A program made the translations under genes and the position numbers. Below are positions 26,485 through 28,667 of a stretch of 64,000 nt of DNA, one piece after another; within the stretch, counting starts at the first letter, position 1; each line of letters starts with the position of its first letter. Origin of the DNA: Natronospirillum operosum (GTDB lineage Bacteria; Pseudomonadota; Gammaproteobacteria; Pseudomonadales; Natronospirillaceae); NCBI RefSeq assembly GCF_004768465.1, contig NZ_SRMF01000003.1, positions 434,001 through 498,000 on the forward strand. Reading direction: 5' to 3'. The notes below the pieces were generated by a model. That model saw only the letters and a list, made by a program, of their open reading frames with translations, did no database searches and had not been told where the DNA came from.

Positions 26485-27573
26485 GTGATTATCGATCAAA
26501 TTGATGTGTACCACCTGCGCATGCCCATGGTAGCGCCGTGGGTGACCGCCTTTGGCACCCAGACCGCCATCGACAGCGTCATGGTGCGGATGCAGTCGCA
26601 GGGCCTCGTGGGATGGGGCGAGAGCGCGCCCTATGAACGGCCGGAGTTTTCGCCGGAATGGGCCGAAGGCGCCGCCGGCCTGCTTCGGGCTCAGTTGGCT
26701 CCAGCGCTGACGGGCGAGGACATCACCAGCGGGAATGACCTGCAGGCCCGTCTGCAGCACTTCAAGGGCAACTATTTCGCCAAGGCCGCGCTGGACAATG
26801 CCTGGTGGGACCTGGCTGCAAAGCAGGTCGGGCAACCCTTGTGGCAGTGGCTCGGCGGGCGCGAACAGTCGGTCGCGGTCGGCGCCGATATCCCGGTGCT
26901 GGCCGATACCAATGCCCTGTTGGCTGCGGTAGATAGTGCCGTGCAGGCCGGGTTCGAACGCGTCAAACTCAAGTTTCGTCGAGACTCGGGTATAGAGCGT
27001 TTGCTCAAGGTGCGCGAAACCTTCCCGGACCTGATCTTCCATGTGGACTGCAACAGCGGGTTCACACTGGCTGATCTGCCTCTGTTTCAGCAACTGGACA
27101 GCCTGAATCTGGCCATGATCGAACAGCCGCTGGCATTCGATGATCTGGTCGACCACGCCCGCCTGCAGGAGCGGCTGACCACACCCCTTTGTCTCGATGA
27201 GAGCCTGGTCAGCCCGCGCAGTGCCAGCCAGGCCATAGCACTGGGTGCCTGCGGCTGGTTCAATCTGAAGCCAGGCAGAGTGGGCGGGCTGACCAATGCC
27301 CTCGCCATATATGAACTGGCACAGGCCGCCAATATACCCTGCTGGGTCGGCGGCATGCTGGAATCCGCTGTCGGCCAGGGTACCGCCCTGGCGCTGGCTG
27401 CGAGCCGAGAGATGTCGTACCCGGCCGACATTTTCCCCAGCGACAGGCTGTATGCCAATGATCTGGCCAGCCCGAGTATCACCCTGTCAGGCCGGGCGCG
27501 GATTGACGCACCACTGGCGCCCGGGCATGGTTTTACTCCGTTGCCTGAACAACTGGCAAGGTGCAAAGTCTAG
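26485..27573 (+). CDS. Enolase-superfamily enzyme, N-succinylamino-acid racemase/OSBS-like
   Basis: 362 residues with all catalytic features of the muconate-lactonising subgroup: Lys161-x-Lys163 (KLK), metal ligands Asp188, Glu213 and Asp238 (HVDCNSGF, MIEQPL, CLDES), Lys262 (NLKPGRVGG) and the GGMLES motif near 289-294. The pattern and numbering match N-succinylamino-acid racemases and o-succinylbenzoate synthases closely. In an operon with a peptide importer and no menaquinone genes, racemisation of an N-acyl amino acid or peptide is more likely. The TAG stop is part of a CTAG that became the junction of the downstream MITE. Confidence 0.85.
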   Translation: MIIDQIDVYHLRMPMVAPWVTAFGTQTAIDSVMVRMQSQGLVGWGESAPYERPEFSPEWAEGAAGLLRAQLAPALTGEDITSGNDLQARLQHFKGNYFAKAALDNAWWDLAAKQVGQPLWQWLGGREQSVAVGADIPVLADTNALLAAVDSAVQAGFERVKLKFRRDSGIERLLKVRETFPDLIFHVDCNSGFTLADLPLFQQLDSLNLAMIEQPLAFDDLVDHARLQERLTTPLCLDESLVSPRSASQAIALGACGWFNLKPGRVGGLTNALAIYELAQAANIPCWVGGMLESAVGQGTALALAASREMSYPADIFPSDRLYANDLASPSITLSGRARIDAPLAPGHGFTPLPEQLARCKV

Positions 27574-27840
27574 TGTCCTGTCTGGTTAATTCGGCGACTC
27601 TCTGCGTGCGGTCTGCGGTCTCTGGCCAAGGCGACATCTCGCCGGCGTGGTGGGCCCACTTCAAGGGATGTCAACACAGGCCAGGGGCCGCAGAGGCACG
27701 ACCTCCGGGAGCCCCTGAAGCGCTCTGATAGCGGCGTTGCGATGTTTCGATTTGGAGCCACCAGACCTTCAACATCGCGCCTTGCTCTCAGAGCGCTCAG
27801 TGGCTCAGAGCAGTGTCGAATTAACCAGACAGGACACTAG
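27570..27840. mobile_element. IS630/Tc1-type MITE of about 270 bp
   Basis: Perfect 24-bp terminal inverted repeats at 27570-27593 and 27817-27840, reading CTAGTGTCCTGTCTGG inward from each end. The inner unit is flanked by TA on both sides within CTAG, which is the TA target duplication and preferred CTAG target of IS630-family elements. The interior codes for no recognisable transposase, so it would need an enzyme supplied elsewhere. Both convergent genes end in a TAG formed from the element's flanking CTAG. Confidence 0.8.
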
Positions 27841-28667
27841 CCCTTCACCGCGCCGCCGAGCATTGAACGGCTGATCTGTCGATACATCACCAGACCCAGC
27901 AGCGTGGGGGGCAATGCGGCAATGATGATGATGGCTGCTGCCATACCCCATTGTATGCCGCCGCCCCCGGACGAGAAGAAGAACGAGGCGCCTACCGTCA
28001 TGGGTACGGCATCCCGGGTGGTCAGCATCAGCCCGAACAGGAATTCGTTCCAGGCGGTAATGAAACCGAATATAAAGGTGACGACAACGGCTGGGCGGCA
28101 TACCGGCAGTACAACTCTCGACAGTATGATCCACAAAGAAGCGCCCTCTATTTTGGCCGCCTCGTCCAGTTCCTCGGGTACATCATGGATGCCATTGACC
28201 AGAATCAACAGTGTCAGCGGCAGGTTGATCACCGCCAGGATGAGGCCCAGGCCCAGCCTGGTGTCCAGCAGCCCCATGAACTGATACATCAGATACAGGG
28301 GAATGGAAAAAATGATCAGTGGCAGGGCGCGCAGGTTGATGACCAGCGGAAACAGGATGTTTGACCCGTAATTGCGTCGCGCAATGGCGTAGGCTATCGG
28401 AAAACAGATAATGATCGGCAGAATTGTACCTATCATCGCGGCCACCAGACTGTTCTGCAGGTAGCCGTAGATATTCAGTCGGTCGGTGACAGTCAGCACC
28501 TGAATAAAATTGTCCAGCGTGGGTTGCTGTATCGACAGCCCTGCATTGGCATTGACCTCCGCCCGGGATTTCAGCGACGTGACCACAGTGCTGATAATCG
28601 GAAAGTTGAGTATGAAAGCAGCCAGCAGGAAGACCAGCCAGCGCAGAGAATGCATCAACAAGGCCAT
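27837..28667 (-). CDS. Sugar ABC transporter permease, MalG type
   Basis: 276 residues with six hydrophobic helices and the docking loop ELDEAAKIEGASLWIILSRV. The start overlaps the MalF-type gene's stop by one base (TAATG). It ends SMLGGAVKG, the family's usual C-terminus, and its TAG stop lies at the right end of the MITE. No ATPase gene is present in this cluster either. Confidence 0.88.
   Translation of the reverse strand: MALLMHSLRWLVFLLAAFILNFPIISTVVTSLKSRAEVNANAGLSIQQPTLDNFIQVLTVTDRLNIYGYLQNSLVAAMIGTILPIIICFPIAYAIARRNYGSNILFPLVINLRALPLIIFSIPLYLMYQFMGLLDTRLGLGLILAVINLPLTLLILVNGIHDVPEELDEAAKIEGASLWIILSRVVLPVCRPAVVVTFIFGFITAWNEFLFGLMLTTRDAVPMTVGASFFFSSGGGGIQWGMAAAIIIIAALPPTLLGLVMYRQISRSMLGGAVKG

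Follow-up and report, generated by a model that had tools for sequence, protein, structure and literature searches.

A putative IS630-type mini-element at the overlapping stop codons of two convergent genes of Natronospirillum operosum, and the conserved hairpin in its interior

The analysed window, a stretch of 64,000 nucleotides of the Natronospirillum operosum genome (contig NZ_SRMF01000003.1, positions 434,001 to 498,000), contains two genes that converge on a short repeated element. The gene on the forward strand (positions 26485-27573, stop TAG at 27571-27573) codes for an MR_MLE enolase-superfamily enzyme of the o-succinylbenzoate synthase/racemase type. The reverse strand carries a gene for a MalG-type ABC permease (BPD_transp_1; 27837-28667), whose TAG stop is read as CTA at 27837-27839. 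The intervening putative IS630-type mini-element (MITE; GTGTCC...GGACAC, 27573-27837, no strand assigned) contains no transposase gene. Its left terminal inverted repeat GTGTCCTGTCTGGTTAATTCG (27573-27593, forward) and right one CGAATTAACCAGACAGGACAC (27817-27837, reverse) are identical in 21 of 21 positions, and arms extended to 40 nt are 83% complementary. The 17-bp end motif, with up to three mismatches allowed, has an expected count of 0.13 in the window; its two exact matches are the element's own ends. The sole listed open reading frame (at least 60 aa) starting within the element is 63 aa long, lies on the reverse strand and runs out at the left junction. Folded as RNA, the element is more stable than its shuffles by 11.3 standard deviations and consists of a stem formed by the ends and two hairpins.

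Inspection of the junctions gives the letters C27570 T27571 A27572 / G27573...C27837 / T27838 A27839 G27840. The left TA copy of the putative target duplication (27571-27572) provides the first two bases of the forward stop, which is completed by the first G of the element; the reverse stop is formed by the last C of the element (C27837) and the right TA copy (27838-27839). Since G is the first and C the last letter of the element, insertion into CTAG recreates CTAG at both junctions and both TAG stops are kept. When the flanks are joined, AAAGTCTAGCCC is obtained, in which a single CTAG holds both stops in overlap; the predicted element-free junction contains GTCTAGCCC, with a predicted gene overlap of 4 bp. 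The initial annotation had placed a MITE exactly at the shared stop of the two genes, both ending in TAG taken from a CTAG at the element ends, and both statements agree with the junction letters and the joined flanks. The 270 bp given there include CTAG at both ends; the exact element is 265 bp long, accompanied by a 2-bp TA duplication.

Alignments with homologues show that neither reading frame was cut by the insertion. Plasmid-borne homologues of the permease (65-67% identity) remain aligned with it up to residue 276 of 276, and enzyme homologues of 55-58% identity run just 3 and 5 residues beyond the end of the enzyme. Because homologues end at the same place, or 3 and 5 residues past it, neither gene is truncated, in line with the earlier claim that both retain an intact stop. 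It had also been proposed that one CTAG once supplied both stops. The joined flanks fit this proposal; an empty orthologous site was sought through homologues of the forward gene in the host's family and among plasmids, and none was found, because the host's family lacks the convergent enzyme/permease pair; nor was the pair found among the plasmids searched. Within that family the only close match to the enzyme is in the host itself, the others being distant, and the nearest plasmid homologues of the enzyme have other neighbour genes.

Other copies with the same terminal repeats, for which the initial annotation had advised a search, were found in the host, in its sister genome (G001) and in many genera. 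Further copies in the host genome are 99% and 94% identical, a truncated one is 95% identical, and there are many fragments. In the sister genome about 30 end matches were detected, many of them coinciding exactly with the ends of contigs, where repeats are expected because they break assemblies. Contigs of about 85,000 species were scanned with TAGTGTCCNGNNTGGTTAATTC as query, TA being demanded at one end, and at least 119 stretches were retrieved. The listed ones come mostly from Marinobacter, Natronospirillum and Tamilnaduibacter, accompanied by Alcaligenaceae, Deltaproteobacteria, Woeseiaceae, Thermoanaerobaculia and others. Paired ends among the listed matches enclose mainly two sizes, 263-265 bp and 159-161 bp. 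No match of the whole element was found among plasmids or viral contigs.

Several individual copies deserve mention. The 99% copy in the host (L002, contig C1:559821-560089) abuts with its right end a further partial end CTAGTGTCCTGTCGGGG, which suggests nested insertion at a regenerated CTAG. Four loci of the sister genome (L078, L082, L084 and L087) are minimal 27-bp pieces GTGTCCCGAGTGGTTAATTCGGGACAC flanked by TA on at least one side; they resemble products of one shared internal deletion, located at a short TCG repeat, or else a self-moving miniature. Four others (L080, L083, L088 and L090) are contig ends that share the outer 20 bp and continue into a different interior (TCGTATATTTTTGC...), perhaps the ends of an unassembled longer element. 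A search of the sister genome for an autonomous element with ends TCGTATATTTTTGC yielded just contig ends.

The interior of the element consists of two inverted copies of an 80-nt hairpin, the first on the reverse strand (27613-27693) and the second on the forward strand (27718-27800); the short form of about 160 bp has one. In 12 elements of about 160 bp, originating from several phyla, 24 of 47 pairs have changed on both sides. In the same alignment 91.7% of cells pair, versus 36-38% when the structure is slid, and the covariation score was reached by no shuffle. Among 19 elements of about 265 bp, 39 of 105 pairs covary. Matches of model R1 were judged by E-value and covariation was recounted on 98 matches, the outer stem of the model being imperfect because MAFFT misaligned stems of unequal length. 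These 98 modules hardly differ in the internal loop GTTG/CGCCTT (T.G in 98/98, G-C in 96/98, CGCCTTG nearly invariant), and outer stem pairs show two-sided changes in as many as 65 sequences. The hairpin evolves under constraint on both base pairing and loop sequence. The module covariance model detected it in 97 of 274 gammaproteobacterial genomes, about a third (E <= 1e-3; matches per genome are often at least the number listed), and in 73 of 249 genomes sampled across the phylum (E <= 1e-5), where matches outside the class belong mostly to one family. The window element has no match in Rfam 15 at E up to 1, and six related loci returned only an unrelated tRNA at the gathering score. A search of the open literature, outside ISfinder and subscription journals, for the loop sequence or for mini-elements combining one interior with different ends gave nothing relevant.

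Both arms of an imperfect palindrome can come to match through template switching, and the covariation might in principle have arisen by such switching or by palindrome-templated repair, not by selection for a functional fold. This origin seems unlikely, since in the 98 modules the internal loop is unpaired and nearly invariant while the stems vary freely, and since the inverted modules are kept about 105 nt apart, with clustered lengths, under different ends. Even less probable, in our opinion, is that the double hairpin was kept as a bidirectional terminator for the convergent pair, which would make the insertion useful, beyond harmless. Such a role would suit the very stable fold and the several related copies that lie between convergent genes; however, the element also occurs between divergent and co-directed genes, its fold is conserved at unrelated sites and under unrelated ends, and no T run after a short hairpin is visible in it on inspection. 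The likeliest interpretation, we infer, is that the hairpin acts in cis as a fold recognised by protein and is common to mini-elements with different ends.

The variety of these ends can be seen around the module matches, examples being GGAAGGTCTGCACG, GGCCTGTTAACACT, GTGTACTGCTTCAC, TATACCCGTCACGG and TACTAAGACAAACG. The module is carried by mini-elements at loci L287-L381, from many proteobacteria. Among 71 elements about 20 end groups were distinguished, an approximate number because one automatic group merges two visibly different end types. Named plasmid examples are those of Pseudomonas aeruginosa PA83, Azotobacter chroococcum and Halomonas sp. PA16-9. Across different ends, total lengths cluster at 160-167 and 263-274 bp, and end type GGGGCGTTCTCAAT is present with both sizes (167 and 272). 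In two-module elements the modules have opposite orientation and are spaced by about 105 nt. One group carries ends whose first 10 bases, GGAAGGTCTG, are those of the IS5-type MITEPsy1 of Pseudomonas syringae (PMC3189936), and L288 displays a 4-bp TTAG duplication; taken together, these two features suggest that at least two transposase families would be involved. The host itself contains a second double-hairpin element (L366, contig C7, 51700-52900) with ends CTAGTGTCCCTTAACAGAAGTTCGT, 269 bp long and with CTAG at both ends. Judged by eye, a reading frame upstream of L366 appears to enter that element via CTA (Leu) and to end inside.

Transposases associated with ends of the window element were found outside the host. 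A 30-base end query matched Rhodococcus plasmids in three records. In two of them, annotated IS630 family transposases are bounded by such ends; the transposase in the third, unannotated there, is 96% identical to one of the other two. These Rhodococcus elements are about 1.15 kb long, have the structure CTA/GTGTCCCGAGTCGTTAATTCGTT.../TAG, code for proteins with DDE_3 and HTH domains and have ends (GTGTCCCGAGTCGTTAATTCG) nearly identical to those of our element, as expected of an IS630-derived MITE. Using a profile of the Rhodococcus transposases, we detected transposase fragments adjoining CTA/GTGTCCCGACTGGTTAATTAGC in Marinobacter gelidimuriae, a genome that also carries the 263-bp mini-element (L193). 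The same profile detected an intact relative, its ends being GTGTCCTGAGTTA, in a metagenome-assembled genome of Pseudomonadales. Neither DDE_3 nor the transposase profile had any match in the host (32-contig assembly) or in the sister genome. The full IS630 element with matching ends that the initial annotation had called for is thus present in Rhodococcus and was not found in the host. Shared ends, TA duplication, small size and absence of a transposase gene are all as in IS630-derived MITEs; a further feature, an autonomous partner in the same genome, was not found and is not essential to this class. Very probably, as its ends and target indicate, we are dealing with an IS630-type mini-element, its driver having been lost or residing elsewhere.

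The flanks of related copies were compared in 64 non-redundant copies among the matches listed. TA is present on both sides in 39 of them and missing from one side in the other 25, a count biased by the scan's demand for TA at one end; 87 of 128 flanks read CTA inward, the preceding C not having been demanded. At two sites other than CTAG (L135 and L178), a 2-bp duplication of TA fits and a 4-bp one does not, and the terminal G...C belongs to the element. CTAG preference of IS630 and TA duplication by the related ISY100 are established (PMC2170065), and the earlier assignment to the IS630 type, with preference for CTAG and duplicated TA, is borne out by the flank counts and by the family of the transposases. 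An IS5-type element proper TGTCC...GGACA with a 4-bp duplication of CTAG (YTAR) would be indistinguishable from it at CTAG, a target that IS5-type mini-elements use too (MITEPsy1, PMC3189936), but this is scarcely credible given that L135 and L178 duplicate TA alone and that the transposases found with these ends are of the IS630 family with DDE_3. Membership in IS5-family MITEs, which duplicate 4 bp of YTAR, was accordingly rejected on duplication length at these two loci.

Most flanks without TA differ by single transitions, CTAG to CCAG or CTGG, as would fit an accelerated loss of CTAG, for instance through very-short-patch repair. One flank is CCAG or CTGG in all five copies noted as examples (L168, L169, L187, L216 and L229 (Marinobacter xestospongiae)), and the element is nearly unchanged.

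The initial annotation regarded a palindromic stop as a harmless landing site. To compare stops with other targets, the joined site was rebuilt for 59 related copies and classed by a codon-usage ORF caller, with 261 other CTAG sites of the same loci as background. The TAG of the site serves as a gene stop in 22 of the 59 (37%), 5 sites lie inside genes and 32 are intergenic; the background comprises 36 stops (14%), 130 sites inside genes and 95 between genes. The difference is significant for stops versus all sites (p = 1e-4) and for sites inside versus not inside genes (p = 6e-10). When stops are compared with intergenic sites alone, p is 0.08 (0.03-0.11 over three stringencies), and any extra preference for stops over intergenic CTAG is at most weak. 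With intragenic insertions missing, stops and intergenic sites remain; the excess at stops comes mainly from loss of insertions inside genes. Insertions at stops are indeed many, although their excess over intergenic CTAG is weak, and the harmless-landing principle itself is not new, having been published for TnRErm46 (PMC6794481). Two stops are served at once only at the window site among the 59.

With high confidence, the locus as a whole is best explained by insertion of a non-autonomous IS630-family mini-element, with a hairpin core as its interior, into overlapping stops. An IS630 relative, now absent from the host genome, would have supplied transposase in trans. After binding the 21-bp ends, this transposase would have excised the element and linked it to the TA within a CTAG, duplicating that TA; these steps are proposed from the known chemistry of the IS630 family. 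The target CTAG would have been the overlapping stop pair of the two convergent genes. Loss of copies inside genes leaves related elements at stops and between genes, as the site statistics show. The hairpin would be a cis-acting part of the mini-element, recognised by a protein as folded single strand or as transcript. More tentatively, with chances slightly below even, we suggest that the double hairpin may be an exchangeable functional core, present once in elements of about 160 bp and as an inverted pair in those of about 265-275 bp, under ends of unrelated transposase families (IS630-like and IS5-like); the core might account for the success of these mini-transposons across proteobacteria through an undescribed recognition of folded DNA or RNA.

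Individual features of the element are known from other systems. RUP of Streptococcus pneumoniae, mobilised by IS630-Spn1 (PMC2229807), is likewise short and non-coding, with IS630-type ends, TA target and a stable fold, and is driven in trans. In contrast to our element, it is 107 bp long, differs in sequence, has no reported double hairpin core and has its partner insertion sequence in the same genome. TnRErm46 of Rhodococcus equi (PMC6794481) also uses a CTAG target, and the regenerated TAG is the stop of the target gene, which stays uninterrupted; this large resistance transposon, however, encodes its transposase itself and has different ends, and one gene's stop is concerned where the window element occupies two overlapping ones. 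MITEPsy1 (PMC3189936) is a mini-element targeting CTAG or YTAA, but it is of IS5 type, 100 nt long, with a 4-bp duplication, and too short for the double-hairpin core. IS630 and ISY100 (PMC2170065) correspond in transposase family, TA duplication and, for IS630, CTAG preference; unlike the window element, which encodes no transposase, they are autonomous.

The insertion is ordinary in kind, a new member of the IS630-type mini-elements at an unusually neat site. It illustrates cleanly that a transposon whose ends are G...C and whose target is CTAG can enter overlapping stops at the cost of neither gene. The unexpected part is the covarying hairpin core, common to mini-elements with different ends and absent from Rfam. 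If this core is a swappable functional part, many bacterial mini-transposons would be built on a common chassis instead of being derived by random deletion from single insertion sequences, and the question of what recognises the hairpin would become testable.
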